From Muricea muricata (Eukaryota > Cnidaria > Anthozoa > Malacalcyonacea > Plexauridae): 64,000 nt of DNA. This document shows, piece by piece, positions 1,599 through 54,580 of the stretch (positions are counted from its first letter, which is position 1; each line of letters starts with the position of its first letter). The translations under genes were made by a program, and so were the position numbers. The notes below the pieces were generated by a model. It had not been told where the DNA came from. It saw only the letters and a program-made list of their open reading frames with translations, and searched no databases. The stretch spans positions 9,138,883 through 9,202,882 of the forward strand of contig OY979725.1 in assembly GCA_963855995.1 (NCBI GenBank), read 5' to 3'.

Positions 1599-1690
1599 TC
1601 TACTTGGAGCGCTACATCATGAATGACGAAGAGCGCATGAGAGCTGAGATCCTCGCTATGCGAGAGCGTGGAGACCAAATCACAGATGAG
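1599..1690 (+). CDS. SNAP25: SNAP-25 first coding exon
   Basis: The acceptor gttttcag ends at 1598. About 20 untranslated bases follow, then ATG at 1619 and 24 codons ([20 protein letters not shown] and four more) up to the donor gtacca at 1691, phase 0. The acceptor before the start codon implies an upstream untranslated exon. Confidence 0.9.
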
Positions 1691-4600
1691 GTACCATGCA
1701 CCTATATAACCTTATTGATTTATGTCAGCTAATTAATATCTCATCCCTTGGTATGTCTGTTGAATGTTTGTGCTAAAATCAATTTTCTGTTCACAAAAAG
1801 AAATTCAAGCTGGGCACAGTTGGGAAAAATTATCAACTATAGTTTCTCTAGCAGGAATCAAACCCGCACCTGTGCAATGTCGGTGCAGTGTTCTGAACAA
1901 TGCTCAGCTATTCTCTGTGGTTTTCGTTTTCCCAAGTGTTCTTAGTTTGAATTTCATCATGTGTGTCCACTCGAGATCAAGACATGTTAACCCTCTGGAT
2001 TATTTTGGCAGTGCCTAATCATGCTAATAATAATCAATATCAACTTAAAATGCACCTAAAGCATGAATTTGAACGCTCAAAACTGTAGTGTAACCTCATT
2101 TGAAGATTTTTGTTTCCATGTAATTTTGACAACAAAAGATTGTCAAACAATTCATTGTACACTTTCAAGAGTTCTTTTGTTTGGAAAATATATTTAGACC
2201 CTGTTTACACTAGGGCAAAAGATTCCAGATTTTTCACTAATCCATATGTTTTGATATCAGATTCGTTTTGCCATTTACACTAAGGAACATGAATCCGATA
2301 CAAAATTGATCATCACAGATAGATTATGACTCTGGAACTTTCGAATCCAGAAAAGTTTGTGGTAATATTGTATCCAAGAAAGTTTGAATCCGGGCAAAAC
2401 GTCTCGTGTAAACTCTTTCCATAAAGAATTTGAGTGAACTTGCCCCCATGTATGGTTTTTTAATGTATTGCCATTAATTTCAACTGTCAAAGTCAGTCAA
2501 AAAATCACAAAATAAGATTGGTAGAATTACGGTTGTGCTTCATGTATTGACAATTGCTGTGTGAGGCTGTGGAGTGTAAACACTCTAGACCTGAAAGACA
2601 AGAAATGCAGATATTTTCACGAATTCAAAAAATTTTGCTCTTGTGTAAACAGGGTCTTATTTTAGTACTTGAGTTCATTACCTTTTTTGAACAACATGAT
2701 TTTTTCTACAAGGTTGATTTGCAGAAAAAATAATGAGTAGATTTCAAGTCTGAAAAATATTCCTATCCATATCGTACAATTTTGTATGATGTAATGTGCT
2801 AACACTGCAATTCGAGGGGCTGTATTATGCAACATAATTTTACATTTTGATTTTTTATCATAAAACTTCATGCAGGGGCAGATTAGATTGTCTGGCAGTT
2901 TAATGTGGAATCCCTGGGTGGACCTGGTTTTTATTTGTGAGGGGGCTTGCACAGTTGATCAGGGGTTCCTGATTGCTAACCAACTGAGTACTATGTACAA
3001 TCGATCTAATAGTAGTAAAAATACAAAAACATTTAGAAATGCAATAAAACAACACCATACTGGAACAATCAAACCAAAGTTTGGCCAACCAAACGTGATA
3101 CACAGAAGAAAAACCGGAATTATAGTGCATTAATATTAAACATGCAATCAATTCTGTTCTATTCCTGTAATTTTGAAAAACTGTTTGAAAAGATGCAAGT
3201 TCCACCCTTACTGACGGTCCTTGTCCGATGGTGCATAATCTAACTCAATTATGCTCTAATTTCCATGTGGTTTCCCACCATATCTCAACCTTCCCATCCT
3301 TAGTCAATCTAACCTTATCTTGAACCTCCTTGTACCACACATCAGCAGACTTGATACTGTATTTTCAACACAGCTTCCAGTACATCCTTAACCCCATGTG
3401 GCCATGCCTTCTACTGTACAATACCCCAAACTGTTACTGCCTCAAATTTTTTGAGGTTGAATCCTCCATGGTCCCAGGGGGGGGGGAGATGTTTGTGCAC
3501 TCTTCATGTCAGCATTGATTCATGTTTTGGAGATTTGGCAGTGAGCATTTTATGTCGCATGAAAAATGTTGTGTTTGTTTGGCTGGTGAACGGAAACAGT
3601 TAACTATATATTAACCAGCAAAATTGCATGATGTTGCAATGATTTGTTGCAATGGTTTGAACAAGGCCTGCAGGACTGTTCAGTGGTTTCATCTTAACTT
3701 TCTTATTTTTTCTTTGTAATTAGTCATGAAAGTCAGAAATTATTACAACCATCAACATAGTACTGTACCAAATCAAAGTATTTAGCTGTTCTGTTATCAC
3801 AGGCGATTTCAAAAAACTTTTGCCAAAATATTTCAAATTTCGTTTCAAAATTTGCAAGTTCGTACCTGTTGCTTTGCACAGGTGTAGGGGGGGGGGGGGG
3901 GGGGGAGTAGTTGTAAAGGAAATATAAGATACATTCTCTAAAGGTATGTCTGGGAGTTAATACGTGACTCAGAATGCAGCAAATTTCACATTTGGTATTA
4001 AAATTTGATATTGCTAATAAACATGTGTACCCCAAAATTTTGACAGCCCGAAGAATTTATATTTCGGATTAAGTAATTCCATTTAGAGTACGGAGAGACC
4101 ATTGTTTGCAATTCACTCTTTCACCTTTTACAAACTAGACGCATGTATTCCTGTTTAAAACATTCAAGTTGTTCAATTTTAACAGTATCTGCATGAACAT
4201 TGCATTGTTATTTTGATTTAAATCAAAGTCAAAGTGCCATTATAAATTTTAAAATATTTTATGTCATATTCAAGCAAAATAGCTTTTTGTATTACATTTC
4301 CCACTAGTAAAAGTTGCTTGATCTACTTCATTCTGCGTATAAAGGCATCCCAGTGCCAACTGCAATTGTAGCCAAACAGATCATTGAGGAAGGTGTCGAT
4401 TGCGTAAAATTCCTCGTGGTCACGTAGGAACTGATGGAGGCATTGCAACTGTTTCGGACCCATTGGGACATAGGGGCCAAGCTTTCCCATAAACATACCC
4501 AATTCTTTAGGAATGTCGGGGCCCGTGTCTTCGACCACCATATAGTCCCCCACCTCAAGGTATCGATGGAAGTACTCCAAGACGCCGTCAACGTTGCAAT

Positions 4601-7600
4601 GTGCGTCCTCGATGAACACCCACGGATGAGGAAGGCTCTTCAGGAATTCGTCGGTAAATGTTTTCTCAATCTGGTACGAATCCCCTTGAAGGAAAGTTAC
4701 ATTTTTCGGCTTCAGCTTGTTTACGATCTCGCTTCGATTACTTGGGTCCAAATCCATGCTGTATATGTGCGACTCGACACCCAGCAAGCCAAGTGTGTCT
4801 GCCATCCAAATAGCCATGCCTCCAGACAAAGTTCCTAACTCGATCACTGTCTTCGGCTTCACCATATCAAACAACTGGTGATACAAGACGAAATCCACAG
4901 GAGACTTGCATACATCAAAGCCACGGTATCTCACCAAGTTCCTTCCAATGCTGGTGTTTTGCCTCGTTTGTAAAGGCACGTCGGTACGCTGTTCCCTCTC
5001 GCTGATGCGTTGAAAACGTTTTTCGCTTGATAACATCTCGTTTCGTATTAGCTCCTGGTTTGCACGAAATTCCCTGTAGGACTCGGGTTCATTGGCAAAT
5101 GGGGGAACGTATTTCTCGCCTTTCACGTAGACATTGCTGTCTGCAGTGGAAGGACTTTGCGACATTGTTCAGTGGGATCAAGTTGTGTTGGTATTGTGCA
5201 ACAATATACATCTAATCATCCATACATGAGGAATATCATATTAACATCCAGGTTTTCTGATTGGTTTGCTGTAATTATCAGTACTTATCTACTTCCGGAA
5301 GCAATCAAGATTTTACACTAACCATTTCTGTCAACACTTCACCTCAGGCAGTCACGAATTAATAGGTTTGCCTTGGCTGTGCCGTTTAGTTCATTCATTC
5401 TTTCCGATTTCATTTATGTATTACTTAATTAATTAACTATGCAGTGTGCATAAAAAAAATAAAATATTGCATAAAAATTTAAAAGGGTTTAAATTCATAT
5501 TAGCAATAACACCTTGTAGTAATCTGACAGCTTTAATCCCTCGTAAAATTAATATGCGTAAATACACACCACTCAAATCTTAGTTTTTGCGCACAGTTTT
5601 GTCCCATCAGTACACGCCCTTGTGTTTTAACACATTACTTCAAAACAATTATAGCTGTCAAATTACTAAAATACGTTACAGTTAATTTGAATTTTAAATT
5701 TTTAAAATTTTTTTATGCACACTTTAGTACAAGAAATGTCCACTTAATCCGCAAATAAAAAATGCCAATCGATGCGCATAGTTAAAATTTCTTTATAAAA
5801 ATATATTCTTAATATATCGATGGTTGAAACAAGCCTTACATTAGAATAATTAGATATTAACTAGGATGCCAAAAGGTAGCGAGGTGCTGCCATATTAATT
5901 TTACTAAATCAGCACTAACAAGTCCATACTTTAATTTTAGAGAGCTTTAGATATATAACTGTAAAGATCCTCGCGAAAGATCCTCCTAAAATTCGCGAAA
6001 GACGCACAGAATTAGATAGAAAAATATGTCCAATTTAATATTAACTCAACAACTAATTTTTCTCATAACCTGCTTCAACATGAAATAAAATTATTGCTGA
6101 ATCATTTATTTATTTCCAACTTACCCACAACTAAATCGTATTTACCATTTAACCACTATTTATGGTGATATGTTACGCGTGAATATTTTTAGGTATTTTA
6201 CATGACACAGTGAATATTGGTATAGTGCGAAAACAACCCTCACGTGACTTTTGAAAATGCATATATTATCATAAGTATTTAGACTGCAAGTCTAAATTGA
6301 TCTGAAAGCGAAGTCTGCGGTAAAGTCTATGACTCTTGACCTTGTGTACTGGTCGTATCTGCCATCAAAGCAAATTCTCCCTGCGTTGTGTTGTCTAACC
6401 GCAAAATGTCGCAAGATCCTCCTTCAGCTGTCAGCGATGTCTACGTTAAAGGCGAGAAGTACGTTCCTCCATTCGCCAACGAGCCCGAGTCGTACAAAGA
6501 ACTCCGTGCGAAGCAAGAGTTAAAACGAAACGAGTTGTTATCGAGCGCGAGACGTTTTCAACGCGTGAGCGAAAGGGAAGACCGGACAGACGTGCCTTTG
6601 CAAACAAGACAAAACAGGAGCAGTGGAAAGTACCTAGCAAGATACCGTGGCTTTGATATATGCAAGTCTCCTGAGGATTTCGTCTTGTATCACGAGTTGT
6701 TTGATATGGTGAAGCCGAAGACAGTGATCGAGTTAGGAACTTTGTCTGGAGGCATGGCTATTTGGATGGCAGACACACTTGGCTTGCTAGGTGTCGAGTC
6801 GCACATATACAGCATGGATCTAGACCCAAGTAATCGAAGCGAGATCGTAAACAAGCTGAAGCCGGAAAATGTAACTTTCCTTCAAGGTGATTCGTACCAG
6901 ATTGAGAAAACATTTACCGACGAATTTCTGAAGAGCCTTCCTCATCCGTGGGTGTTCAGCGAAGATGCACATGCCAACCTTGACGGCGTCTTGGAGTACT
7001 TCCATCGATACCTTGAGGTGGGGGACTATATGGTGGTTGAAGACACGGGCCCCGACACTATCAAAGAGTGTGGGATGTTCATGGGCAACGAAGGTACCTA
7101 CATTCAAGTGGGTCCGAAACCGTTGCAATGCCTTCGACAATTCTTGCGCGACCACGAGGAATTTTACGCAATCGACAGTTTCCTTAATGATCTGTTTGGC
7201 TACAATTGCAGTTGGCATTGGGACGGATTTATACGCAGAATGAAGTAGATAGCAAGTTTGACCATATAGTTTGAAATATGATATATAACATGAATTCAAT
7301 GAGATAAATGTTATACAAAAAATTAATAATTAAAATTTATACAACGTACAATTTTACAACGGAACAAGATGCATGCTGGTATAGCTTCAGTACAAGCAAT
7401 TCCATATAAGGTATGATAAATTAATTATTTTGTACTGAATCTAAACCACAATGCACCATGCTTTGTAGTTCAGAAAAGGTCTATGTGATTCTTGGTGCCG
7501 ATAATAATTCTAAACTGCCATTAAACATGAATAGAAGTCATACTATTATTTCAGTCTTCAAGACGTCATGAAGGAAATATGTCCTTCAAGGTGTTAGATA

Positions 7601-10600
7601 AGGTGTTACTCTTTGTAAATAGAAAGTTAATGTTACTTTAAAAAGTATTTGAAGTCAATACTTTTATTCATTAAATGTTTGCAAAGTTGAGTAAATTATG
7701 TACTTGTTGCAACAAGTGTGATTTTGGGCAACTGTCATGGGGAAAATGTTTATATTTCATAAATAAAAAGTCATTATAAAGTATTCCAAGAGAGGAATCA
7801 TTTAATATTTTTATGTAAGTTATTTCCAATTTACATGTATGCTGAAAGGCTCTGCTGACATCAGGTTGATTTTTTAAAAGAAATTAATTGGGCAGAACAT
7901 GAATATATGAATGGTTCTATAGCTGATGTGTTTGTAGTATTTTTTACTTTGGGGTCTACAGCTGACATTTTGAAAAAAAAATTAATTGGGCAGAACATGA
8001 ATACATGAACGGTTCTATAGCTGATATGTTTGTAATATTTTTACTTTGGGGTATACAGCTGACACTTTCTAAAAGAAATTAATTGCACAGAACTTGAATA
8101 TTTAATCCCTACCCTAACAACTCTGAGTCCTCCAGATAGTGCTTTGATAGCACAATTAAAATGGCAGCTGTACAGTTTCCAAATAATGCATTGCAGTGCA
8201 AAATCTTTAATTTAAGAAAGCAAATAGATGTCTTTTAAAAAATAGACTTACATAGCCAGGGGCCAATTTGTGTTTATTCTGCTAAAATTTCTCATCTTGA
8301 TTGTGTCATCTTTATTCAGTAATTTTCAATTGACATTGCCAATACATCCTAACCCTAGTAAAATGTGCATGTGGACATATTTTTCTGTAATCATGGACTG
8401 AGAATTTTCAATTGACATTGTCAATACATTCTAGCCCTAGGAAAATGTGCATGTGGACATATTTTTTTGTAATCGTAGACTGAAATTTTAATCAAAGTTA
8501 TCCACATTTGAAATCAGACTTTGGAGATTGAAATTCAGTGATAAGTGTGTTAACTATCAAAAATGACCTAACCAAAATGAAATTTGTTGCACAGTTTTAC
8601 ACCAAAATCATACACATTTGTCACCATTTGAAGTCAGACTTTAGGGTCTAAAGGTGGCACGTTTGTAATATTGCTTACTTTGCAGTCTGTATAGCTAACA
8701 TTTTACAAAAGAATTAATTGGGCAGAATAACATGAGCATATCAGTACACACACAAACACTCGTTGGGTCTATAGGTGACGCAATAGTATTATAGTAATGT
8801 ACCGATCAATTCGAAACTTCAACATCCCCCCCCGGGCAGACCCTGGGAATTTGACTCCAAATTCTTTCCGGGAGTAGGGAATTTGACTATGTTCCGGATG
8901 GGGCGGGGAATTTGAACCGGAAGTATCTTCGGTTAAACCGGAAATGTCCGTTTGTCCGTTTTCCCGCGCAAAAACTGAAAATGGCGGCTGATATAATATG
9001 TTTAGACGATTTTAAAGGAAAAAAGAAACTTAAAAAGGATAATAAGCCTATTTGACAAGCAGAAATACCATTTGCAATGTTGTTGTTATTATAGTTCAAA
9101 AGCGGGGTTCTACACCACAGAATATAGACAACACAGAAACGGAACTCCTGCAGAGAAATACATAGCACGCTATCTTTTAAGTAATTGCCATATAGAAAGA
9201 CGTTCAGAGAGGTGACGGTCTCTACTTGAGGCACTTGCTAAAAACATGACGGTATGGGGAATCATGATGAACATTGACGGTCCCTGTCATGAACCCGCTT
9301 ACCCAAAAAGCAAGACAGTTCTATTTCTGTGCAGTCTAGTATATTTTGTGTCTATTCTGCTTATTGACTTTCTTGATTACACATTTGTTTAAGCACGTTT
9401 AGCACTTAACCAAAGCAAAAACGTTTTTAAATAGATTTTTTTCTACACTTTTTAGTTTAATGTACTGATTGTAGTTATATACAGCTATTTCAAAAAATGT
9501 TGACCTTCAAAAACATAAAACCTTAAACTCTAAGCGCGCAAAGGATGATGGGTAAGTTGCTATTTAGGGTCTGAAATGAGTAACGTTTACCTTGCTATAA
9601 CACTAGAATACATAATAAACACATTTGATACCATGTAAGCTGTTCACCGGATTACTGACCCATCAATGACTCTATTCATTCCTTGCGCGCTTTAATAGAC
9701 TTTAAGATTTTATGTTTTTGAGGGACAACCTTTTCTGAAATAGCTGTGCCAGACTTTAAATATATTGTTGTTGAAAGTATGAAAGATATTACCTTTTTGT
9801 ATGGGGTATATTATTACTTCATGGTATAAAGACTATATAGTCTCCCTAGACATGTATAGTCTCCCTGATTCGTGAACCTGATTCATGATTATTATGACGT
9901 ACAATATCCGCCAAAATTGTACAGTAGATTTGTACAATTGTACTTCCAATATACGTGTAAGTTTGCATTTCAACATTCAACATTCAATTCCTGTTCATAA
10001 TCGAACATTGTAAAGTTTACGATTCTTGGATTTGTTTTCATTTTTCCAGAATTGAACATTGTAGATCGCTCTATTCAACTTCCTACTTTTCATTATTGAA
10101 CATCGTAATTTACGATTTCCAACTTCCAACCGCAATCCAATCTCGAACCGTCTGCGCGGGCTCAACCATTCACCAATTTTCACCCAGTAGGGTAGAGAAC
10201 GGTTAATCAATTCCACCCGTTATACCCCCGATAGCTGAACTTTTTGCCCTAGCAACCGAGATTATGCAAATTATGATGCGGAATAATACAAATTAATTAT
10301 GATAAGGATTATACAAGATGGCGGCCGATAAAATAAGCGAAGTTCGTTCGTCTCTTTTGAAGGCCGTGGAACGTCTTTGCGAGATGCATCAAACACACAA
10401 GGTATTTGTTTAAACGTTTTTAATGTGATTTCTTAGTTATTAAAGGAAATACATGTACATATACTAATTACAATCACAATATTCCGAGCTTTCCATTTAA
10501 AATCTTTGTTCACATGATGACATTAATCGAAGTGTTAACATTTAAAAATACATTCTCTAGCATATTTTTACTACAATCAGATTAGATAAGCAATTATTTT

Positions 10601-13600
10601 TGAGGAATGGTCTCAACTAGCAACGGAACGATCGAAAACAAAATCATTTTGCAAATCATCACATATAGCATGGCCATCGTAAACAAATTGAGCCAGCAAT
10701 CAGCAATGCCATGCAGTTAGAGAATCAACACAATAATAGACAATAATTGTTACTGAATTGACCCCAAAAAACATACAGGATTTTAACTTGCCTAATACAT
10801 TAATCCCGGCATACTGTAATATCACACACATGCTATCCTGAAATAACATTATGTTAATTATGCACGTGTTTAACTAAATTTTTTTATTATTGAATGTTTC
10901 ATTTGTGAAGAACCTTTTTCTATGAATGAAATAGCAGAACACCAAAGATTGGTCTATCCTGATGATTTTTCACCTCTAGCGGTTAGCTAGCTGTAGCAGT
11001 AGTGTGTAACATCAGTCTGCTGCAACTAGCACTGCTGACTGTAATACATGTATGAAGCAAATACTTGGTAGTAAATTTTGCAGCTAAAAATGTAGGATTG
11101 GAATAATTTTTGAAACCAAAATATCAAGAGAATCATTCCTGGGGGGGGGTACAAGGGGGGAGGGCATGGCCCTTACCCAGTCACACACTTTTTACACACA
11201 ATTCTGTAATTTTAAATTCACTGTAACTGAAAATCATTGCCTACTAGTTATTGACAATTGAGACTGCAAAACATGCCAAATATGTGGGTTATAATATATA
11301 TGCTCTTATTTCAGAAACAAAAGACTATTGATACTATTGTTGATTTGAGGTAGTAAAAATGTATAAACTGGGCTAAAAACATCTAATTCAGATACTCAAG
11401 ATCTCAAATTGACATAGTCAGTGCGTGAAATGTTTTGAATTCACTGAAAAATTCAATGAAACCAAATAAACAAAATTTAAGGCCCTTTTTCAGGCAGTCA
11501 CTTAATACATTGTTTCAGACTTTCAGGTATTGAAATTAGGTAGTGAAAGGGCGTATTCTTTTCAAGGCACTTGTGGTATAAGTGAGGGACCAAAATTTTG
11601 AATTTTTAAAATATAGTCAGGCTTTTATTCTAGGCTTTTAATTGAAATGTAAAGGTACGGACAACTATGTCATAAAATTAGTACTAATTAGTGATTGAAG
11701 AAGCATACGTTTTCTTGCTCATATAAAAATGTTTTCAATTTCAAGTAGAAGCTGATGTGTTTGATAGCAATCTATGCTATATGTGTCTATAGTACGACAA
11801 AATGATTTTGTTTTCGATCGTTCCGTTGCTAGTTGAGACCATTCCTCAAAAATAATTGCTTATCTAATCTGATTGTAGTAAAAATATGCTAGAGAATGTA
11901 TTTTTAAATGTTAACACTTCGATTAATGTCATCATGTGAACAAAGATTTTAAATGGAAAGCTCGGAATATTGTGATAGTAATTAGTATATGTACATGTAT
12001 TCCCTTTAATAACTAAGAAATCACATTAAAAACGTTTAAACAAATACCTTGTGTGTTTGATGCATCTCGCAAAGACGTTCCACGGCCTTCAAAAGAGACG
12101 AACGAACTTCGCTTATTTTATCGGCCGCCATCTTGTATAATCCTTATCATAATTAATTTGTATTATTCCGCATCATAATTTGCATAATCTCGGTTGCTAG
12201 GGCAAAAAGTTCAGCTATCGGGGGTATAACGGGTGGAATTGATTAACCGTTCTCTACCCTACTGGGTGAAAATTGGTGAATGGTTGAGCCCGCGCAGACG
12301 GTTCGAGATTGGATTGCGGTTGGAAGTTGGAAATCGTAAATTACGATGTTCAATGATGAAAAGTAGGAAGTTGAATAGAGCGATCTACAATGTTCGATTC
12401 TGGAAAAATGAAAACAAATCCAAGAATCGTAAACTTTACAATGTTCGATTATGAACAGGAATTGAATGTTGAATGTTGAAATGCAAACTTACACGTATAT
12501 TGGAAGTACAATTGTACAAATCTACTATACAATTTTGGCGGATATTGTACGTCATAGATTATATACCTTGTATGGTCTTGTCTTTTATATTGTAATTTTC
12601 TGTATGACGGTGGGGCATTTGAACACATTTTTTGCCCAGGTGGCGGGGAATTTGAAAAGTCAGATTTTAAAAAATTCAAATTCCCGGCGTCTGCCCGGGG
12701 GGGGGGGATGTTGAAGTTTCGAATTGATCGGTACATAATAGCCTAGGTAGCCCAAAATAAATGGATGTTTGAATTATCAAAACACTGAGCAATTTTGGGC
12801 TACCTAGGGTAATAGGTGACAATATAGTAATATTGCTTACTTTGGGGTCTATAGCTAACATTTTATAAAAGAATTGAGCAGAACAATATGAGTATATGGA
12901 TATACACACTAACACTCGTTGCCATTTGAAGTCGGACCCTGGAGTCTATAGCTCAGGCGTTTGTAATATTTCATGAGCTTTCAGTTTTAATCGACATTTA
13001 ATCAATTTGAAGTCGGACGCACAAACACTCGTTGCAATTTGAAGTCGGACTTTGTGTCTATAGCTGAGGCGTTTGTAATGTTTCTTGTTGAGGCTATAGC
13101 TGACACGTTTGTGGTGTAGACGCATGCCAAGAAGATAAACTGCGACACGCAAGGAGATTTCCTTTTAATTTTATATCATTAATAATTCTGAAATCACAAA
13201 TTTACATAGATTATGGATAACGCATTCCAATCATATTTTTACAATAGCAAAGATTAATATATAAGAAAATTGGCTAGAATCACTAATACAATAAACTAAC
13301 ACTAAGAATTGCTGACGGAACTATAAAACATTAAGATTATACCTGAAGGGTAGATCTCCTTACGCTCGAACTTCTTTGAAATCAATATTTCGCGACTCTG
13401 CGTACGCGTGTCCCCTCTGTTTACTAAAATGTAATTACTAAAAGCGCAAATAAGACCGCTTACTGTTCGCAACAGTTTCAAATTACGCACCGTTCAACAT
13501 CAACTACAATAACTAACTAAACTAAAATAACATAACGTAACGAGTAAAATATTAATTAAGCTAAAATGTCATAGAATAGTCAATTGTTTTAAACAGTTTG

Positions 13601-19600: not shown

Positions 19601-22600
19601 TTGTTGCAAGTAAGGAATTACACGCTTGAAAATGTGACGAATTTCGTGTAACCGTAACTCCTCTGCGCTTTGCTGTGATCTATGATCCTTTTATACCTGT
19701 TACGCGATATGGCGATGGATCCCAAGGTAAATATAACTTATTTCTTTGATTTTGTTTCAACAATACCAAATCTCCGATTTAGCTCGGTTTCTTGTATCCG
19801 CACGATCCTTTATTTTGTTTTTCTCCCTAGCGTCTCTTTGAAGTACTGCCTCACGACTTGTAGTAGGAGACGTTTCATTCGGCTGAGAATTATCAAGCAT
19901 ACTTTCTTGATTTCCCTCTTTCGCTTCGGGGATCAACGCGTTGCTGTCCGGTAGTCTGTTTCGTATTTGTCGGTTGAATAATAGATCTGCCGGTGCAATC
20001 CCAGTAGTGACATGTGGTGTTGTACGATAATCTAGGAGAAAACGATAGAGTTCCGTTTTCCAATTCTTTCCTTGTGAGTGAGCAATTCTAACTGATTTTT
20101 CAATAGTCCTCATGAAACGTTCTACGTATGTGCAGTGTTCACGTGATACACGTGACACGCCTCATGTATATTGTTCTGGGGGATTGGTAAAGGAAGGACA
20201 ATGTATAGAATAAACAGACTAAGAACATTTTATTGCAATGGCGACGAGGAAAATAAATAGCACGAGACCTAGAATCGTTCGAAAATTACAATGATTTAAC
20301 ATGGCAACTGCGGCAAGGATAGAGGTGCCTCTCCTTATCCCATTTGATCCGATTTCGGAACCGACATCAGTAAGTCAGCGCTGGAAAGCGTGGAAGCGCC
20401 GTTTCGAAATATATTTAATTGCTGTAAATGTGAAAGATGACGCCCAGAAGCGAGCATTGTTGCTACATCAAGCAGGGGAGGCGACACAAGAAATCTTTGA
20501 TACTCTAGAAGAGACAGGTGACGACTACAAGACGGCAATCGAGAAGTTAGATAAATACTTTACTCCGAAGAAAAATGTGGATTATGAGATATTCCAATTC
20601 CGCCAAGCTAAGCAAAACAATGGCGAGACAACTGACCAGTTTGCAACACGACTTCGCAAACTAGCAGCTCACTGTGAATTTGACGATTTAGATCAGGAAA
20701 TAAAAACTGCCATTACACAAAATGGCCGATCAAAACATCTCCGGCGATTTGCATTAAGACAAGACAAAGTAACGCTTAAAGATCTATTATCGAAAGCCAG
20801 AGAGTTAGAAAACAGTGAACGAGAAGTCCAAACTTCCTGCCCGTATAGAAAGATGGAATTTAAGGATTCAAGACTTTGATTTTGATGTAGTGTACACCGA
20901 TGGGAACACTAATCCCTCTGACTTTTTATCGCGCCATCCTTGTCCTGAAACAGACAACAAACATGAAACATCAGCCGAAAATTATGTCAATTTCATTACT
21001 ACCCATGCAGTTCCAAAAGCGATGACGGTGAAAGAAATTCAAGATGCTACTAAGAACGATGAAACACTGCAGCACCTCGCTGAAATCATTCGTAAGCAAA
21101 CATGGAATTCAATAAATGACATACAAACGTCTGCAGAAAATTTGAATGAATTAAAGTTGTTTGCAAAGGTAAGAGATGAATTAAGTGTTGACGAACAGCT
21201 GGGTATAATTCTTAGAGGAACTCGCATCATCATGCCTTACTCCCTTCGCCAGAGAGCTATAAAGTTGGCTCATGAAAGCCATCAAGGCCTAGCAAAAAGG
21301 AAGCAATTAATTAGAGAGAAACTTTGGTTCCCTAGAATTGATAAGAATGTTGAGGAGTTGATTCGTAGTTGTATACCTTGCCAAGCAAATTGCACAGCAT
21401 CCCACCCTTTAAGAGTAATGACATTGATTGTACATGAAAGAAAATGGAATTAAACATCAACGCATAACACCACTATGGCCTCAAGCCAACTCAGAGGTAG
21501 AAAACTTTATGAAGCCAATGGAAAAGGCTATTCAAGCTGCTTGCATTGAACAAAAAAACTGGCGAAAAGAACTGTTCAGTTTTCGAATAAATTATCGAGC
21601 CACCCCCACACAACAACAAAATTCTCACCCGCTGAGCTGTTATTTAATCGGACAATTGACGTAAAGAAAAAATGAAAATGAATGCAGACAAGTTTAACCA
21701 TGCAAAAGAACATACCATTCTGGTTGGTGATACAGTATTAGTACGACAGCAGAAAAAGAACAAATTGTCAACAAGATTTGATCCAGAACCATATCAAGTA
21801 ACACGAGTGGAAGGAGCAATGGTGACTTTAACCCGTCCAGGACATTATGTAACAAGGAACATCTCATTCTTTAAGAAAATTTCACCACAGCAATCTCACC
21901 GACAAGACACAGATCGAGAAGAAGAGGAAATCTGGGACGAACTGAATGACAGTGACAGTGAAACAAATGTCGAGAGAAATAATGTGGTGGACTGAACAAT
22001 GGTGAACTGGTTGATAGACGGTATCCTTTAAGAGATAGAAGACCTATCTATAGATATGGTCAAAACATTTATAGTTAGGAAGAAGTTACTGTTAATAACA
22101 TTGTTGACATTTTGTTAGAGTATATCAGGACTCAACAGGAACAGTTTAAAGTAAGGGAGGGATGCAGTGTTCACGTGATACACGTGACACGCTTCATGTA
22201 TATAGTTCTGGGGGATTGGTAAAGGGAGGACAATGTATAGAATACACAGACTAAGAACACTCTATTGCAGTGTGCATTGGCCTGTGGCCCATATGGTGTA
22301 ATCTTTCGATGTTTGATTCCATTTTGCACTAAATAGTTGTGAAATTCGTGTCCGTTAAAAGGGTGGACCATTTTCGCTAACAAATTCAACTGGGAATCCA
22401 TGAACTGAAAATATTTTCTCGAGCCTTTCAATAGTGACTGGCGTAGAAGTTGATCGAATGATTTCTACCTCAGGGAATCGAGAATGTTCACCATTAATAC
22501 TAAAAGAAGTCTCCGCTGGGAAATGGTCCACAAAAATCCCCATGAATTACTTGCCATGGCTTGGGTGGCATTGTGGTCGTTCTCAATGGTTCAACTGTTT

Positions 22601-25600
22601 TAGAAATGTTCGCAGCTTGACATTGTATACAGGAAGCAATAAGCGTTTCAACTAGGCGATCTATTCCCGGCCACCAGACTTTTGTTCGGAGTAAAGTTTT
22701 GGTTTTCACGATACGCGATGTTGCGCATGTGCGATATTTAAGGTGTGGCCTCTCAGTTTCTTGGGCGTAACAAGTCGGTTTCCTCGTAGTACAATACCAT
22801 TATCTGAAACTGTTAGTTCGTTTCGAATACTTTTATATGGCGTTAAATCAATGTTTCGATCGTTTCTATTCTTGGCAGTTTTCCCAGCTGGTTTTCCTGG
22901 CCAGCAGTTTGTTCTAATAGCCGCTATAAGAGCTTGAATTTCAGCATCCCTCTGACACGCTTCTTCCATTTCCTGCCTGTTCATTGATTTAGGCACTAGG
23001 TGGTCGATTAAAAAATTTACATAGTCTTCTGCAATACTGTTCTTTTCGAGTGTTAGCAATGGTTTACGGGATAGGACATCAGCTGGATTCGTTTTTCCAG
23101 GTCGGTGTCGTAGTTTGAATTGGTATTGCTGTAACCGAAGGGCCCATCGTTCAATCCGTGCGGACGGTTTTGCTTTGGGATGGTATATAACTTCTAAGGG
23201 TTTATGATCCGTATCTAACTCAAATTCAATTCCGATAAGATATATGTGGAATTTTTCGCAACCAAAAACTACCCCGAGCGCCTCTTTCTTCGTTTGTGAA
23301 TATCGTTGTTCGACCTTGCTGAGGCTACGGCTTGCATATGCAACAATTCGCTCATCATCGTCACTATCAAACTGTGATAAGATAGCCCCCAATCCGACCG
23401 GACTTGCGTCAACTGTTACTCTAGTTCTTTTAGAGGGATCATAAAAAGCAGTGGTACAATCTTTTCCAATTTCTTCTTTGACTTTGTTGAATGCCTGTTG
23501 GTGCCTATTTGTCCATTTCCAAAGAACGCCTTTATTGGTTAACTCGCGCAATGGTGCTGTAATGGACAATTTGCATGTTAGACTAACTTTCAGTCAAGCC
23601 AAGACAAACAAAATCTTTTACCACAGTTAAAAAAGAGCACCCTAAAATTAGTAGAATTGCCAAGTTTGGTGGCGAAATGTTGTAAAGCATGGAAAATATG
23701 GCGTCGCAAAGTTTGCAAATTTGTATACATTTGTATTACGCGAGGAAAAAGTTACCACTTTTCAGCTAAAATTGTATCAAAAGTGGTAACTTTTTCCTCG
23801 CGTAATACAAATGTATACAAATTTGCAAACTTTGCGAGGCCATATTTTCCATGTTTTACAACATTTCGCGACCAAACTTGGCAATTCTACTAATTTTAGG
23901 ATGCTCTTTTTAACTATAGTAAAAGATTTTGTTCGTCTTGCCTAGATTGAAAGTTAGTCTAACATGCAAATCATCTACTGTTGCTAGGTTATGTATAAAC
24001 CGTTCACAATATGTAGCCAAGCCCAAGAAGCTGCGTAACTGGGAAACGTCTTCTGGCTCTTTCATGTTAACTAATGCTGCAATTTTGGTTTTGTCTGCCG
24101 AGATGCCATCCTTTGATAAAGTGTAACCATAGAACCGAATGCTGTCAACATTAAACTTACACTTAGACGCATTAGGGGTAAGATTGTTTTCTGAGAGACG
24201 TTTCATAAGAGCTTCAAGGTGTGTGTCATGTTCTTTCTGGGACTTTCCCCACACAATTATATCTTCGGCAATGTTCCGTACTCCCTCCATTCCCTGGAGT
24301 GTTTGTTGAATAGCATATTGAAATTGCTCTGGTTCCGAAGCTACTCCAAAACACAATCGTTTATATCGCATAAGACCTTTGTGGGTGTGAAAAGTGGTAA
24401 GAGATCGTCACTCCTCGTCAAGGAGCAACTGGTGAAACCCTGCTGTCAAATCCACTTTTGAAAACTTTGTAACCCCAGCCATGTCCTTAAAAAGTTCCTC
24501 AACATTAGGGATAACATGTCGTTCTCGCTCAATCATTGGATTGACATGGCGCATGAGTATACATACTCGGACTTCAGCTGGATTATTGGGCTTTGGTGCA
24601 ACAACAAGGTTTGACACAAAAGGTGTAGGTGTCCCTGGTGGAACAAATTCAATAATATCATTTTCTTCTAGTTCTTTCAGTTTATTTTCTGTTTGTTTAC
24701 GGAGATGAAAAGGTATCTTTCGGGGTTTTTGGACAATAGGTTTAGCATTATCTTTAAGGTGTAAGTGTACTTCGTGACCCTTAAGTTTCCCAATGCCACC
24801 AAAAACTGTTGGATACTCGTTTTTAAACTGTGACATTTCTGGTGAATCAGGTTGATTGCTCTTAGGAATTTCTGGATTTTCATTACCAAACTGTTTATGA
24901 TCCTCTCGAGGATCAGTGTAAGATGTGGAACTAGGCTGGGTAACAGCATGCACATTCATTTTCACAATATCTAGCCCTGTGGCTGTGGAATAACTTAGCA
25001 ATGAACCACCGTCCCCATTTACAACATGGAATGTTGTAACAACCATTCTGTGTTTTGACTCAATAAGTCCTTCAAATTTTCCAAGGACAGGCAAAGGCTG
25101 AAATTGCATGTAAGCATAAATTTTGTGTTTTGACGGTTGCAAGTGTAAAGTGGGGTTTTTCTTTTGGATTTCATTGAATGCTTCGGCATCTAAAATGTTT
25201 ATTGTTGCCCCAGTGTCGACAATCATTTTTATATGAGCCTTTTCAATAATAACTGGAATGGTTTTAACTGCCTGTGTAGTTGGTGAAACCCTGTTTTCTA
25301 CTGGTGGAGAGACAACAAATGCATATGAATCTTCATCAGAGGAATCTGGCTGCTTGTCAGTATGGTTGATAGATCGAATGTTTTCACCTTTGGGTTCTGG
25401 AATAATGTCCCGAGTACTTTGACGACTACGGCACATAGCCACAAAATGATTTTGTTTACCATATGCAAAACAAAATTTCCCCTTAGCTCTACACACACTA
25501 AGATGACCTGCATGATAATTTTCACCACAGTTATAACATAATTTCTTACCATCCTGTTGCTATTCACGTGATTTCACTTGGCCTGCATTCTTAGATTGGT

Positions 25601-28600
25601 AGGAATATCGATTGCTGTAGGATACTGGGTTGTGGGTTGATGTCTGTTCGTTTGTTGCCGGTACTGGCCTCACTTTTTTTGTTGATTATGTATAGCATTA
25701 AAGTGTTTATGAAACGAAATTTTCTCCCTCAATTTTTTTATTGCATTGGAAAGATCAGTTAAAATTACAGTATAACTTCCTTGATAGAATTTTTGTAACT
25801 GCTTTACTTTTCGAGATATTTAATTTTATTTGATTTGAAAATAACACAACCAGTGACGTCATTGTGCATAATCACTTTTCATCAAAGCTGAATTAATTTA
25901 AAAAGCACTCAAGATATAACACTTAAATACCCAGTTCTGGATGTTCAACATAGCCTACACGCATGTAAGTGTAGTTTTAGTTATTTTTCGCTATTATATG
26001 CTACAAAATAAGCAATCTAACAGTCACTCATTATACAGTATGACGTCGGTGGTTGTGTTATTTGCATATCCTATAAAGTTGAATATCTTGACAAGGAACG
26101 GAGTTACAAAAATTCTGCCAAAGAAGTTATGTTGTTATTTTATCTCATCTTTCCAATAAAACCAACAAAATGTTGGACAAAATTTCGTTTCATAAACACT
26201 TTAACTGCACTCGAGGGGGAAGCTAAATGACCACAATCTTCTTCTAATATTTTGACAGCTTTATCTGGCATATAATAAGATGTCTGCTAACGACAAATCA
26301 TCCTGAATGGCTTTTCTCCGCACTCTCGAAGGCAAACATCCCTCAACAAGCTGGATTTTAATCTCATTTTCACTGTTAGAAAATTCACATATGATGGCTT
26401 GCTGTCGAAGCCTGGTGCAATATTGATCAATTGTTTCCTCAGTTACTTGTTTTAACTGGCGAAATTTATGAGTTTCAAATAAAACATTTTTCTTACGTGA
26501 AAAATACTCGTTTAGCTTTTCAACAGCTTTCTTGTAATCTTTGTCTACTCCCACATCAGACAACATTGCAAAAACTTTTTCTACTTCGTATAACAATAAG
26601 GCACGTTTCCGAGTATCGTCTTTTATATCCATAGCTACCAGAAAACGTTCGTACCGCGTAAAGATAATGTAGTTGGATCCAAATAAGGATCAAAATTGCC
26701 CAAACTTAATTGGCAAATCCAATGCCGTCGCCATAGTGAATATTTCCAAAATTTTCTCGATTTGATTTCAAACTTGATAAAAACACTAATCCAAACGTGT
26801 ACAGTCTCTCTTACAAGTGATGATCAGTAGCGAAGCCAGCCCGACAATTTGTATGCAAATTTTTATGCAAATCATGGTATGCAAATTTAAATCAGTATCA
26901 TTATTCATTTCTTTAGAAATTCATTCCTTACACGGTCAAAAACACAGAAAAATTTGCATTCGCATGACTAAATGTCGGGCTGGCTTCGCTACTGGTGATG
27001 ATGTTTCTGTAGTAAAATGTTTTTTTTATTTTAGTCCTCTTCGCCAATATTATATACTCAAACTCAACGATTTTATTATCTTTAACTCTCCGTGCTTTAA
27101 CACATTTTACAAACACAAACCCGCCATCTTATTCCCCTTTCTCGTCCCCAATCCCCAGCGTCTGACTCGTGCAGCAGAGCCAATTAGTAAGTAATGCCCA
27201 CTGAGCTCTATTAATTGAGCTCAGTGGTAATGCCTCAAATTTACTGGTCAGGCAACCAATCAAAATGCTTTAAAAGAAATTATTTACCAAATTTATTGCT
27301 ACATAAAAAGCAAAAAGCTGTAGTCACTTGTAACGTGCATAGAGCCACAGGCAAACCAAACAATGTAACGTGCATAGAGCCACAGAAAAAAATTTCGGAG
27401 ACATCTCTCTTTACTTCCAACTTACTCACAACTGAATCGTATTTACAGTTTGGACTATTTATATAATAATATGTTACACGTGAATGTTTTTAGGTATTTT
27501 ACATGACGCAATGAAAGTATTGATGTAATGCGAAAACTACATGCATGCGTATTTTCCCAAGGACTACGCTTCTATTCATACTGAGTAAAAGTACATATGT
27601 TGTCAGATGTTAAATTAGTTATTTTCCACTCCTTGGAAAATCCCGCGTTACCAAACTCTTAGATCGTAGTACATATGCTCACGCGATATATCGTCTCTCG
27701 TTAAACTCTGGTGAGTGACTATCACTTTCAACCGATCCGAACGTTGTATTCCAATAAAATTACTGGTTACAACGTTTGATAATTCCAATAGTTACTGGAA
27801 TTGTCATTTCATGCATATAAAATGAACCCTTACCCAGACCCCAACCCTGACCCTAACCCTAACAATCCCAGTAATTTATTGGAGACAATAATTTTATTGG
27901 GATACAACGTTCGGATCGGGTGTCACTTTAGAGGCAGTGAATCTTGACCGATCAGAATGCAGAAAAATCAACAGACACCCGAAAATTTATACTAAAGAAC
28001 TTAGTCGAGTACATAATAGGTATATTAATATTCCCCCTCCCCTCCCGCTCCCATCAATTTGCTATCTTTGCTCCTCCTGAGGATCGAATATGTTGAAAGT
28101 CGCAAGAAAAATTGCAGCTTATATAAGTCCGTTTTCCACTTCAATCGTAGGCGAAACGTAGCGCACTTCATTGCTTCGTAGAAAACTCGAGCAGGAAAAA
28201 TGATATGGAGACAATAGAGTTACGGAACATGAAAAGATAACCTAAATTTCTGAGATAATACGCATTGATAATGAATTTATAGATCGCTCAAGAACTTGAT
28301 TCAATTTTACATCGCTAAATCAATGCAAAGCCCAATCATCGAACTGCAAAGTTTCGGCACTCGGCTCTCACGTGACTTTTGTACATCCATATATGTACTT
28401 AGACTGCTAGTTTATAATTGACTTGAAAGCAAAGCTCGCGGTAAAGTCTATGACTCTTGACCTTGTGTACTGGTCGTATCTATACCATCAAAGCAGATTC
28501 TCCCTGCGTTGTGTTGTCTAACCGCAAAATGTCGCAAGATCCTCTTTCAGCAGTCAGCGATGTCTACGTTAAAGGCGAGAAGTACGTTCCTCCATTCGCC

Positions 28601-31600
28601 AACGAGCCCGAGTCGTACAAAGAACTCCGTGCGAAGCAAGAGTTAAAACGAAACGAGTTATTATCGAGCACGAGACGTTTTCAACGCGTGAGCGAAAGGG
28701 AAGACCGGACAGACGTGCCTTTGCAAACAAGAAAAAACACAAGCAGTGGAAGGTACCTAGCAAGATACCGTGGCTTTGATATATGCAAGTCTCCTGTGGA
28801 TTTCGTCTTGTATCACCAGTTGTTTGATATGGTGAAGCCGAAGACAGTGATCGAGTTAGGAACTTTGTCTGGAGGCATGGCTATTTGGATGGCAGACACA
28901 CTTGGCTTGCTAGGTGTCGAGTCGCACATATACAGCATGGATTTGGACCCAAGTAATCGAAGCGAGATCGTAAACAAGCTGAAGCCGGAAAATGTAACTT
29001 TCCTTCAAGGGGATTCGCACCAGATTGAGAAAACATTTACCGACGAATTCCTGAAGAGCCTTCCTCACCCGTGGGTGTTCGTCGAAGATGCACATGCCAA
29101 CGTTGACGGCGTCTTGGAGTACTTCCATCGATACCTTGAGGTGGGGGACTATATGGTGGTCGAAGACACGGGCCCCGACATTCTCAAAGAGTGTGGGATG
29201 TTTATGGGCAACGAAGGTACCTACGTTCAAATGGGTCCGAAACAGTTGCAATGCCTTCGACGGTTCTTGCGCGACCACGAGGAATTTTACGCAATCGACA
29301 CCTTCCTCAATGATCTGTTTGGCTACAATTGTAGTTGGAATTGGGACGGATTTATACGCAGAATGAAGTAGATAGCAAGTTTAACCATATAGTTTGAAAT
29401 ATGATATATAACATGAATTCAATGAGATAAATGTATACAATTGACGAAGTTAAAATTTACGCATGACAAATATTAAATTATGAAATGATACTTGATCTTT
29501 TTCCCTGTGCTTGACATGTCAATTAACACGAGTGTGTAATGTGGGAAGAGATATCACGTAGGAAGAAGAATACCCCTCCCCAAGCATCCTTACCCCCTGA
29601 TTTTGCTTCCCGTAGTTCGTTCACTGCAGTGCCAATGTAAAATCTATTGTGCTGTTATACATCTTGCTACAGGGTGTATCAATACAAAGTAGGCCCTTTC
29701 AAGCAGCCGCAATTCAAATTTGCCGCAATCTGTTTTGTTAATTTCACAGCTCGGAAATACCGGGTTTTGTACAAGGGAAATCGATAATAACAGTCAGTGG
29801 ACATAGGACGGTTCCGGCAATTCTAAAATCAGGAATTTTTTCAAAATAGCAACTGAAAAATAGCTAAAGGGAATTTTATCCGACCTCCTGAAATTGCTAA
29901 ATGTTCTGAAACATGATGACGGCGTGCGTGCTTGGCACAAAATTTTGAAGTAGCGAAAGACTTAATTGATGAGAAAGCATTACTCTTATTCAGAAGATAG
30001 GGAAGTTTTACAGCAAATGTTTTTCCGAAGCTAGACGATGTTTTTCCAAAAGAAAGTTTTTGAACTTTTTTTTAAATAACGGCACTTTTGAAATTCATGC
30101 GAGATACCGCTGAAAAATTACACGGGCACCGTATGGACAAATAGACAAATACGACACTTTTTTGTCTTTCCTACATAGATAAAAGACTTGAAAAGACGAA
30201 TTTGCTGCACTTTTCAGTTTCAGCATCGAAAAATTTCCCAATTTTAGAACCGTCCATAGATTAATAACATACTAAAATTCCGTAAGATCTCGTGCCGCTT
30301 TTCGAATCATTAGTTCGAAGCATTTCGAGGTGTCAAATTAATACGGCAGATTCCAGCTAATTTGAATGTGCGGCTACTTCAATTAAGGGTCTACTTTTTT
30401 CTATACCCTGTATAGGGCATCCCAAATATTGAATTCACCTATTGTCAGAACTTGACTGACCTAACACTAAACTCAACCATTAAAACGATCGTCGCTTTTG
30501 TTTATATTATTTTTTAAGTAGTAAATTGATTACAAAATTCCTCCTGTCTTATTTCTTACACATTAGGGACCCGGGGATGTTCATGCATTATAATTTATCC
30601 ATCAAACTGAAACGAAAGGAAAGGGATTCAGTCTGAGTTATTTATTGTTAACAACATTTGGCTTTTTTTTTCAGTCTCTAGAAGCCACTCGTCGTATTTT
30701 GGGAACTGCTGAAGAGGTAATGACATTGAATTCATTCGTATTCGTATTTTTTCTTTAAATTTTGTTGAAAGGGCGATATTCATTATCTAACGGCTTGGTA
30801 TTTTTAACTGCGAAAGCATTATTTCCCGCAGATTAAGTATTTTGCAAGCTAGAGCATACCAACGTGTGATTACTGTCTCTATACCACTTCTCTCTACCAC
30901 TTTTATCTCACCACACCACCACCACTCCAAATTTCTGCAGACCTCCTGGAATGAGACAGCATCAGATAGAGAGCGACGTAGGTCGCTAAAAACCTAAATT
31001 TCCATGTTTTGAGTGAAGGCAAAGTGGAAATGTTTTGCTAGAATGGGGATATGGTGTGGTGCTGTTTGGTATGGTATAGTATGGTGTATGGTGTGGTGTG
31101 GTGTGGTGTGGTGTGGTGTGGTGTGGTGTGGTGTGGTGTGGTGTGGTATGGTATGGTATGGTATGGTATGGTGTAGTGGTATGGTATAATGGTATAGTGT
31201 GGTATGGCATTGTTTGGTATACTTCGCTTTGCTTTGCTATGGTTTATTTTTGTTTGGTTTAGTCTAGTTTATTATTTTCTTCATGCACTTTTGATTTAGC
31301 GAATTTTCCTAACAGAATACCGCCAAATCTTAGTAGATCCGTACAAATTGGTTTAAATTATCATACAAGGGTCATCTGCTGGTATAAAGTATCAAGCAGA
31401 ATTTTCAAACAAGCTGCGTACATCATTCGCGAATAAGAAATGTTTCTTAGGTGAATGTATTCATGATGGAAGCCAAAAATTAAGAAATCTCAACAACTTT
31501 TTATGTTGAGGGGGGGGGGGGGGGGGAGAGGAGCCGCTTCACGCCACTTCCAGTTCACCTCAACTTGATCTTCTATGCAACGGACCGAAGAAAAAACCCT

Positions 31601-39058: not shown

Positions 39059-40738
39059 GTGTGTGTTCCCATGCATACCGCGTTACACATGTTAATTTCT
39101 GCAGGTTCTGGTCAGTCATTGCCAGGATAGCAATCACTGATAGTTCTGCTTAATGTTTTAAATTTTTCTACACAAAAAGATCAATTTTTCACAATTAAAC
39201 ATACTCTGAAAATCCAATTTCATTTTTTCCTGGCTTTGAACATGAAATAAAATACTGTCAAATTATTTCAACAATTAAAATTCATGAACAATGAATGTCT
39301 ATTTATCCAAAAACCAAATATTTTATGAAACAATCCGATTGTAAAAAAGGATTTTTTATTGTGACTGAATGCGTGATGGTATTGGTTCTATTTTACCTAT
39401 AAACGCCAAATTAGTTTCAGTAATAAAACAATTGCAATGTGGTTTGTCATTATTTGACTTTGTGATATTTTTCTGATTTAAAATAAGGGAGATTAAAGCA
39501 GTTTATCTGAAACAGCCACTAAAATCTCAATCTGCTTTTGTTTCAACCATTGTTTGACTTTCATTGTTCATTTCAAAGCTTGGAAAGTTTATTTGAAAAA
39601 TCACAACAGTTCTACATGTTATTGGAGCATAATCTGAACATTATTTGATGTAATTTCAGAACTATTAAAGTGCACAAACATTAAAATTGAAAATGATTTG
39701 TAAAGTTTCATACTACTGTATCTTTTGTGATTTTGTAACAGAACTTTCCTCCTTTAAGATGAATTACTTAAGGTCAAAATAAGCTAGCATATCGTCTTTG
39801 CTTCATTGCAAAGTGGAACTTGTTTGGAATTAAGATGAACCGAAGCAGTTGAGCTTTGCAGCAAGTGCAAATTAAAATACTAATAACTAACATAACAAGG
39901 AAAATCACAACGAGACAACTAAATTCTATAAGCTATGTTTTGCATCGTGGCAAAAAAAAGATGTTAAGAGTGGTGTCATTTTACATATTTACTAAATTTA
40001 GTTTGTTGAACATCCGACCTTTCCAAAAAAAAAATAAAATGGTCTGCAATTTAGATGGAGTAAAATAACATAAATTAGTTTTGGATTTTTATAACATGGA
40101 TTTTTGGATTTTGGATTTTTTTGGATTTTTTCTTATTTTTAAAATTACAAGATATTTCCATTAACCTTCAAATTTTTTTAACTTTTAATATTGTCTGATT
40201 CTGGTGAGTTTGTATTTCGCAATTGAAATAATTTGTTGTTTTAAATGTCCATTCCATTTGCTTCAGTTCAAGTTTACTTTTCAAGTAGTTCCAGTTTGTA
40301 ATCGTAATAACAATACAGGAAAGCAGGTTTACATGGCTTTTGAGCATAGTTTCGAGAAGTAAGTAAAGATAAGATAAAAAGAGGCTTGTTTTTAATCTGA
40401 CAATGACTGCAAAACTCTCAAAATTTTTCATTCATGTTTATAATATATCTTGAAATATAAACCGGCATTTATCTTGAAAGAAAGCAAGTTTTTTTAGGAC
40501 TTATTCATTCACTTCTGTTAATTCACATTTTATTGTCCTCTTTCTGCCATGTCATGTTTTCTTCTATTGTTATTTGAGTGAGTACAAGGTTGTGGTAGTT
40601 AATCTATTTTTATTGTTATTCAAATTGTAAACTTTACAAGTTCTTTTTAATAAATTGTTTATGAGATTTGCACATGATCCTTTTTAATTAAAAATTCAAT
40701 TCCCATGGGAATTAAGAAATTGAATAAAAAAAATCCCC
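39059..40738. other. Non-coding part of duplicated unit 1
   Basis: Very AT-rich with T- and A-runs. Matches 60120-62990. No conserved reading frame between the two units. Confidence 0.55.
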
Positions 40739-40856
40739 CTACCCCAGCCAGCTCCCCAAGTGCTACTTTCACCTTTGTAGAAGTACTTGTACATATAGTA
40801 CAAGTACTTCTACTTATTTACGGTGGAAGTAGCACTCGGAGAGCTGGCCAGGGTAG
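40739..40856. mobile_element. 118-bp hairpin, copy 1
   Basis: Arms ctaccccagccagctcccca and its complement, with an inner perfect hairpin gtagaagtacttgtac. Same element at 62998-63116. Confidence 0.8.
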
Positions 40857-54324: not shown

Positions 54325-54539
54325 AGTTGGCGTAAGTTTGTTGATTTTATTTTGTTGGTAGTTGCGGTCAAAAGCACACAAGAGCATAGCAATAACATTG
54401 CTGGCGTGACATAGCAAAACATAGTAGAGAATATAGGGATATACCACCTTATTTTCTACTGCATTTTGTTCTGTCACGCATGTAACCTTATAAGTAAGTT
54501 GTAACAAAAAAGGCCCTGGAGGGTACCTAATTAGAGTGG

Positions 54540-54580
54540 ACCTAATTAGGTTTCCAGGTTCAATTCCTGGAGCCATGCAA
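54540..54580 (+). repeat. tRNA T-arm-like motif in palindrome arm
   Basis: tttccaggttcaattcctgg resembles a B box/T arm. It is mirrored at about 55880-55905 on the minus strand. No matching A box. Confidence 0.35.

Follow-up and report, generated by a model that had tools for sequence, protein, structure and literature searches.

A gene-converting family of CmcI-type methyltransferase genes, likely of bacterial origin, nested in a SNAP-25 intron of the octocoral Muricea muricata

Introduction

Methyltransferases of the CmcI family catalyse S-adenosylmethionine (SAM)-dependent methyl transfer with Mg2+. The CmcI protein of known structure, recorded as 'cephalosporin hydroxylase' (PDB 2br3/2bm8), we take to belong to the cephamycin pathway of Streptomyces. 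Here, we describe three intronless genes of this family, m1, m2 and m3, which lie in the first coding intron of the SNAP-25 gene of the octocoral Muricea muricata. The window that we analysed is a stretch of 64,000 nucleotides (C10:9138883-9202882, where C10 is the 13.9-Mb contig OY979725.1) in a 453-Mb genome of 74 contigs, and coordinates without a contig name refer to it. On balance, we find it probable that these are working octocoral genes for CmcI-type O-methyltransferases, which would have been gained from a bacterium, duplicated, converted and selected.

The closest systems described elsewhere come from cyanobacteria and from a springtail. SxtX of the cyanobacterial saxitoxin cluster is given as cephalosporin-hydroxylase-like, and is predicted as an N-1 hydroxylase, in the relevant passages of PMC2866473 and PMC2684587. 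It is likened to the coral proteins by description alone, and apart from that description nothing in our data points to a saxitoxin pathway. Among animals, the springtail Folsomia candida carries cmcI and cmcJ clustered with ACVS and IPNS and flanked by a retrotransposon, according to passages of PMC5490193 (also PMC10051947), and an excerpt of PMC3060125 has a Folsomia 'cephalosporin hydroxylase' transcript in its cadmium table. An animal with such a gene, as the octocoral is, is therefore not unprecedented. The springtail case, likened by description, differs in its host and in the company of ACVS, IPNS and cmcJ; the same passages report IPNS as laterally acquired (PMC5490193) and leave the origin of cmcI itself unstated. 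In the passages retrieved by literature searches on cephalosporin hydroxylase, CmcI with transfer or eukaryote terms, rhamnosyl O-methyltransferase in coral, and PF04989, we met no report of a cnidarian CmcI-type gene.

Octocorals are also known to have fixed a laterally acquired gene, the mitochondrial MutS (mtMutS), which an excerpt of PMC3166940 describes as present in all octocorals and missing from the examined hexacorals. The mitochondrial DNA (mtDNA) contig of this assembly (C74, 19,292 bp) holds cox1 and a MutS_V match, the best among the six MutS_V matches reported for the genome, and therefore the host genome is that of an octocoral. The cox1 protein likewise seems to be of octocoral type. 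However, mtMutS is mitochondrial, acts in mismatch repair and is a protein unrelated to the CmcI family.

Results

We observed three reading frames of 280 codons each from ATG, all intronless and with zero internal stops: m1 (4323..5165, minus strand, antisense to SNAP-25), m2 (6406..7248, plus strand, divergent from m1, its start lying 1,240 bp from that of m1) and m3 (28529..29371, plus strand). Longer frames from GTG or TTG starts are also listed for m2 and m3; the ATG starts were used. At the protein level, m2 is 94% and m1 is 88% identical to m3. All three match the profile PF04989 (RMNT_CmcI) with 56.6, 66.0 and 59.0 bits for m1, m2 and m3, respectively (cut-off 23.2), and the alignment has the SAM motif and the EDAH motif retained in each of them. 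The longest stop-free stretch in 60 Markov-simulated windows was 216 codons, which, together with their mutual relatedness, indicates that three genes of 280 codons did not arise by chance. The frames, the profile scores and the alignment thus bear out the original prediction of intact, intronless 280-codon frames on both strands of a SNAP-25 intron with SAM and EDAH motifs kept.

A protein search of the genome gave seven matching stretches and a PF04989 search gave five, all of them at two places, on contigs C10 and C3; as the search goes exon by exon, these copy counts are lower bounds. The C3 place holds an intact intronless copy (∼17.229 Mb, 283 amino acids, PF04989 50.6 bits), a second copy split in two parts ∼6.4 kb apart, and a short methyltransferase fragment. 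Judged by eye from a comparison with the intact copy, the split is a long terminal repeat (LTR)-type insertion, not an intron, with a probable 4-bp target duplication. The full-length copies (m1, m2, m3 and C3) are all single open frames without introns. We also noted on C3 a near-perfect GGACT array of ∼1 kb lying just upstream of the split copy (L005 from ∼2210; C3 from ∼17.2532 Mb on) and, ∼4.6 kb from the intact methyltransferase gene, a Pox_A32-type ATPase match of 32.0 bits (cut-off 22.8; L013:3795-4655, C3:17223795-17224655), which looks like virus-like or Maverick-like remains.

The similarity of m2 and m3 extends past the gene. The m2 duplication unit (6239..7318, plus strand), comprising the gene, 167 bp of DNA before it and 70 bp after it, is 94.5% identical to the m3 unit (28367..29440, plus strand) across 1,083 aligned columns. 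Farther upstream, another block belonging to the m2 unit (6109..6237, plus strand) is 82% identical to 27410-27540, and 826 bp that are not in m2 stand between this block and the m3 unit; the upstream homology reaches to ∼-300. From this shared DNA beyond the gene and the upstream block, we concluded that m2 and m3 were copied at the DNA level, and a predicted local amplification within the intron is supported by the two units. Between m1 and the other two genes, homology was detected over the coding frame from its ATG and for 33 nt beyond the stop codon, and no farther. As judged from sequence comparison, the m1 lineage is older than the m2–m3 split.

The lack of introns and the narrow homology of m1 could also be accounted for if the copies had been retroposed, i.e. 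made by reverse transcription from a spliced animal parent gene. We regard this as very improbable, as m2 and m3 have common DNA well upstream of the gene and the C3 copy is intronless as well. We saw no poly(A) tail where the homology ends on the 3' side, and no spliced relative was found among the five PF04989 matches in the 453-Mb genome (a lower bound).

The ratio of non-synonymous to synonymous differences (pN/pS, whole gene) was 0.22 for m1–m2, 0.23 for m1–m3, 0.35 for m2–m3 and 0.20–0.22 for each gene against the C3 copy, making 6/6 pairs, with Fisher p-values of 1.6e-15, 5.0e-13, 3.5e-3 and <=4.3e-41 (lowest 2.4e-52), respectively. These ratios show purifying selection on m1, m2, m3 and the C3 copy; the comparison of the two rates, proposed earlier as a check, comes out for selection and not for neutral drift (0.20–0.35, p <=3.5e-3 throughout). 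In neutral simulations at 0.15 changes per site, the frame stayed stop-free in 0.45% of 2000 runs.

The synonymous differences (pS) between m1 and the other two genes are unevenly spread. At codons 85–196, pS was 0.10 for m1–m2 and 0.06 for m1–m3, as compared with 0.51 and 0.50 before this segment and 0.42 and 0.33 after it; the segment limits were set after first difference counts. The same codons have a pS of 0.69–0.75 against the C3 copy, with no dip, and over the gene 68–78% of the synonymous sites differ between the C10 and C3 copies, which is near saturation. None of 10,000 codon shuffles reached the observed clustering for m1–m2, nor did any of 10,000 for m1–m3, whereas the m2–m3 differences are not clustered (4628/10,000 shuffles). 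On these statistics, we read the low-pS central tract of m1 as the footprint of ectopic gene conversion that joined inverted copies, rather than of local constraint.

In a search of PDB sequences, the best solved-structure match of the coral proteins was CmcI (3.1e-21, residues 79–216), which, along with the PF04989 scores, confirms their predicted placement in this bacterial-type family. Only ∼138 residues align by phmmer, and the aligned stretch is preceded by 78 residues in the coral proteins versus 56 in CmcI. The acids D160, E186 and D187 of CmcI, presumably its metal ligands, line up with D187, E212 and D213 of the coral proteins, in which we take E109, G111 and D138 to be the SAM site residues. 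These six coral positions are invariant in 29/29 aligned rows (3 coral, 26 bacterial). An AlphaFold2 model had a mean predicted local distance difference test (pLDDT) score of 82.6 and a predicted template modelling (pTM) score of 0.81. About 27 N-terminal residues of the coral proteins are without a counterpart in the bacterial rows aligned; over codons 11–49, 25/39 (m1), 30/39 (m2) and 30/39 (m3) residues are conserved between the C10 and C3 copies.

From these features, m1–m3 are most likely SAM/Mg2+-dependent O-methyltransferases, and their substrate is most likely a small molecule, i.e. a specialised metabolite or a sugar, so that a metabolite and a glycan are both candidate targets. The NCBIfam equivalog for rhamnosyl O-methyltransferase, NF045824, has a cut-off of 400 bits, and m1, m2 and m3 score 43.7, 44.9 and 43.0 bits; the four bacterial relatives tested likewise fall below it (38.6–57.8 bits).

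We searched for relatives in prokaryotic, phage, plasmid and viral collections, in PDB sequences and in whole genomes from five phyla. A tblastn search of plasmids gave ten records, the best being from Scytonema (39.8% identity), where the gene stands between a JmjC gene and a nonribosomal peptide synthetase (NRPS); the Scytonema relative is recorded as 'cephalosporin hydroxylase'. In the prokaryotic contig collection we obtained 31 loci, and the record titles make 26 of these cyanobacterial, with cyanobacterial identities of 34–42%, in a scan biased by two short patterns (coral-only patterns gave none, Scytonema-added patterns gave the 31). Among whole genomes, at E <= 1e-12 and with the centre genome included in every count, matches were found in 13/386 genomes of the Scytonema phylum, 3/195 of the Myxococcus phylum, 4/398 of the Parasphingopyxis phylum, 5/396 of the Williamsia phylum and 4/247 of the phylum of a Geobacter metagenome-assembled genome (MAG). 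The best E-values were 5e-57 for a cyanobacterial match with one internal stop and 2e-45 in Myxococcota (46% over the core). Across these collections the prokaryotic relatives are patchily distributed, and the strongest are cyanobacterial (Moorena, Okeania, Prochloron, Trichodesmium and Scytonema). The cyanobacterial proteins have an N-terminal RF.KISERED motif and a C-terminal GYN.S region in common with the coral proteins, but they lack the coral N-terminal extension. The phage collection had no relatives and the viral contigs had none with the patterns tried, and we rejected a phage or viral origin on that basis.

The gene neighbourhoods of several bacterial relatives suggest, by analogy, that these may act on small molecules. 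The Prochloron copy has a pyridoxal phosphate (PLP) decarboxylase, a second methyltransferase and DUF3326 as neighbours, and the Okeania copy TauD oxygenases, short-chain dehydrogenases/reductases (SDRs) and a pterin-binding protein. Rhamnose and polysaccharide genes surround the Rhodobacter copy, and sulfate and glycosyltransferase genes the Allorhizobium copy. A deltaproteobacterial plasmid copy has no metabolite- or glycan-type neighbours except pyruvate, phosphate dikinase. Separately, we noted cyanobacterial frames of 1133–2196 codons (L070-L073); they were dropped as NRPS parts, as L070, L071 and L073, scanned in part, proved to be methyltransferase strings (TylF, Methyltransf_24, CmcI).

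In a 34-row tree, the sister group of the four coral proteins (100/99) is a clade of 23 rows (22 cyanobacterial rows and one Methylococcaceae MAG), with a support of 92/86. Support for coral plus that clade was 92/91 in a 31-row tree from which the long branches L053, L019 and L021 had been removed. In a 56-row tree, the coral clade (99/98) falls within a 37-row group (91/87) that also takes in the cyanobacterial clade, the Myxococcus/Williamsia clade and others, the branching inside the group being unsettled. Near-duplicate, partial or frame-shifted rows (L038, L049, L050, L051 and L054) were left out of the trees, L051 returning as L081 in the 56-row tree; the latter was built without the repeats L062-L065, L067-L069 and L085, the second Moorena copy L078, the plasmid locus L022 and the plasmid matches H5, H6, H8 and H10. 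All trees are rooted at the midpoint only. By the approximately unbiased (AU) test, for which the groups were named after viewing the 34-row tree, holding the coral proteins inside a Moorena-type subset was rejected (p 0.018), and the coral rows are not nested in the cyanobacterial clade. In these trees, which sample prokaryotes and the coral, the coral proteins thus fall among lineages of bacteria, with no one donor clade singled out, and a lateral bacterial origin of the coral methyltransferases is likely.

The same trees bear on a different possibility, namely that the bacterial likeness reflects common ancestry only, the genes being members of an old eukaryotic family that most animals have since lost. 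Such a family would have come down by vertical descent or have moved between eukaryotes, with dinoflagellate symbionts as one conceivable source. In its favour, the coral proteins form a long branch that is not inside one bacterial clade, and the near-saturated synonymous divergence between C10 and C3 speaks of great age. However, all four full-length copies are intronless and the genome searches, with their lower-bound counts, gave no further PF04989 place; the coral rows stand among bacterial lineages under the midpoint root; and in the passages of the literature searched, we met no animal other than the springtail with a gene of the cmcI type. Compared with the spliced leader of dinoflagellates, the regions upstream of m1–m3 have 9 mismatches of 21 at best, which is no near match, and a spliced-leader relic of a dinoflagellate donor was rejected. 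We consider this ancient family unlikely, yet it is the alternative to be taken most seriously.

The gene that encloses m1–m3 was identified through its exons, located by motif. Coding exon 1 (1619..1690, plus strand, 24 codons) is followed by a donor GT at 1691, coding exon 2 lies at 30675..30716 (plus strand), and the reading frame of coding exon 3, as searched with its 3' exon end unmapped, spans 31729..31896 (plus strand) and encodes the N-terminal SNARE motif and the cysteine-rich linker. Exon 3 alone, when compared with PDB sequences, matched SNAP-25 at 3.5e-22, and exons 1–3 join in frame; therefore, the enclosing gene is a genuine SNAP-25. The two short exon pieces gave no Pfam match above cut-off, and a PF00835 profile search of the genome gave no match for SNAP-25, nor did its controls. 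The intron holding the three genes (1691..30674, plus strand, GT...TTTTTTTCAG) is 28,984 bp long, close to the 29 kb predicted. It had been described as the first intron of the gene, and this holds for the coding introns only: an acceptor, TTTTCAG, ends at 1598, just 5' of the ATG of exon 1, so an additional exon of the 5' untranslated region and its intron probably lie upstream of 1619.

These exons also settle the question of contamination of the assembly by bacterial DNA. A bacterial-type protein, the absence of introns and a coding GC content of 0.48, as compared with 0.29–0.42 in 2-kb windows of the surroundings, are what a contaminant would show. However, the genes are physically embedded in host DNA, between in-frame SNAP-25 exons of a 13.9-Mb contig; their identity to bacterial proteins does not exceed 42% among the contig loci and 46% over the core among whole genomes; and a C3 copy is broken by an LTR-type element. 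Contamination is effectively refuted.

We also weighed whether the nested position is itself functional, either by lending SNAP-25 chromatin for neuronal or secretory expression or by interfering with SNAP-25 transcription. Three genes in one intron, all intact, with m1 antisense and m2 and m3 sense, would fit such a role. The intact and constrained paralogue on C3, in repeat-rich DNA, does not, and suggests that residence in the SNAP-25 intron is apparently not required; moreover, a passage of PMC8467205 has early analyses crediting nested genes to large introns. A functional nesting thus appears improbable.

The remaining features of the region are as follows. Within the SNAP-25 intron, pieces of LTR retroelements of the Ty3 type occur on either strand at 20301-25496, with an RT_RNaseH match far above cut-off at 22706-23569 and gag-like and protease-like matches under cut-off. 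At 9893-12556, two arms of ∼760 bp, 98–99% complementary and with 1.15 kb between them, form either a young inverted duplication or an element with long terminal inverted repeats. Downstream of SNAP-25, collinear blocks at 39724-41698 and 60507-63950, 74–84% identical and ∼21–22 kb apart, suggest a segmental duplication of older date or else a repeated element of large size, and 54375-56082 is a nested complex palindromic repeat of ∼1.7 kb with several arm pairs that are 91–100% complementary. Directly upstream of SNAP-25, there are gelsolin/villin-type frames, supervillin-like by eye (L009-L010, C10:9121278-9136074), and several frames that resemble G-protein-coupled receptors lie farther upstream (L055-L056, C10:9089453-9105469). 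A further Pox_A32-type packaging ATPase match, 24.4 bits against a cut-off of 22.8 (L056:2770-3642, C10:9101770-9102642), again looks like virus-like or Maverick-like remains. On C1, the largest contig seen, another cox1 match, interrupted by one stop (L094, C1:38414782-38416095), is probably a nuclear mitochondrial insertion.

Discussion

The history that we propose is that an ancestor of the coral acquired the gene from a bacterium, one belonging to a radiation with cyanobacterial and myxobacterial members, the coral proteins now bearing the N-terminal extension that the aligned bacterial rows lack. Copies settled at two chromosomal places long ago, as the near-saturated synonymous differences between C10 and C3 show. 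In the SNAP-25 intron, a first duplication separated m1 from the lineage of m2 and m3, and a later one, clearly by copying of DNA, separated m2 from m3. On statistical grounds, ectopic gene conversion made ∼110 central codons alike in m1 and the m2/m3 lineage, and purifying selection maintains the proteins. The intron would be a tolerated rather than a needed home.

Several observations weigh against this history or against parts of it. With the coral proteins held together with Myxococcus/Williamsia, the AU test gave a p-AU of 0.114, i.e. no rejection, and the cyanobacterial sister signal weakened with the wider sampling of the 56-row tree. The trees sample prokaryotes and coral only, so that a wider animal or protist family fits them too. 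The m2–m3 contrast in substitution is weak by itself, with 19 non-synonymous and 14 synonymous differences. In the neutral simulations, 20% of frames remain open at 0.04 changes per site (about the m2–m3 distance), and therefore the intactness of m2 and m3 alone is little proof. Near the Moorena copy (L024), one of the two neighbour frames scanned was of an ion-channel type and the other was a Spond_N protein, so that not all bacterial neighbours fit metabolism. Finally, a search for linkage to a terpene cyclase was uninformative, as it gave zero matches in the genome and zero in the controls.

The ancient lateral acquisition put forward in the original prediction is accordingly upheld as likely by the bacterial placement and the intronless copies, with its donor not pinned down by the AU test; the proposed phylogeny did put the coral rows among bacterial lineages, within the sampling and rooting given above.

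Octocoral terpenoid gene clusters are documented (PMC12685057). The boldest form of our account is that of a domesticated natural-product methyltransferase with a new N-terminal extension, a gene-converting family in the intron of a neurosecretory gene, expressed in secretory or neural cells and tailoring a metabolite made by the coral; as a whole, we hold this to be doubtful.

Within one animal intron, intronless paralogues here lie nested in another gene and trade sequence through gene conversion, which makes the locus a clean example of its kind. It offers a way to test whether a host gene shields the genes nested in it, whether they are coupled to it, or whether they are unaffected by it. 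If the transfer is true, a laterally acquired small-molecule methyltransferase has been selected and amplified in a terpenoid-rich animal group, and it would be a candidate tailoring enzyme for octocoral metabolites.

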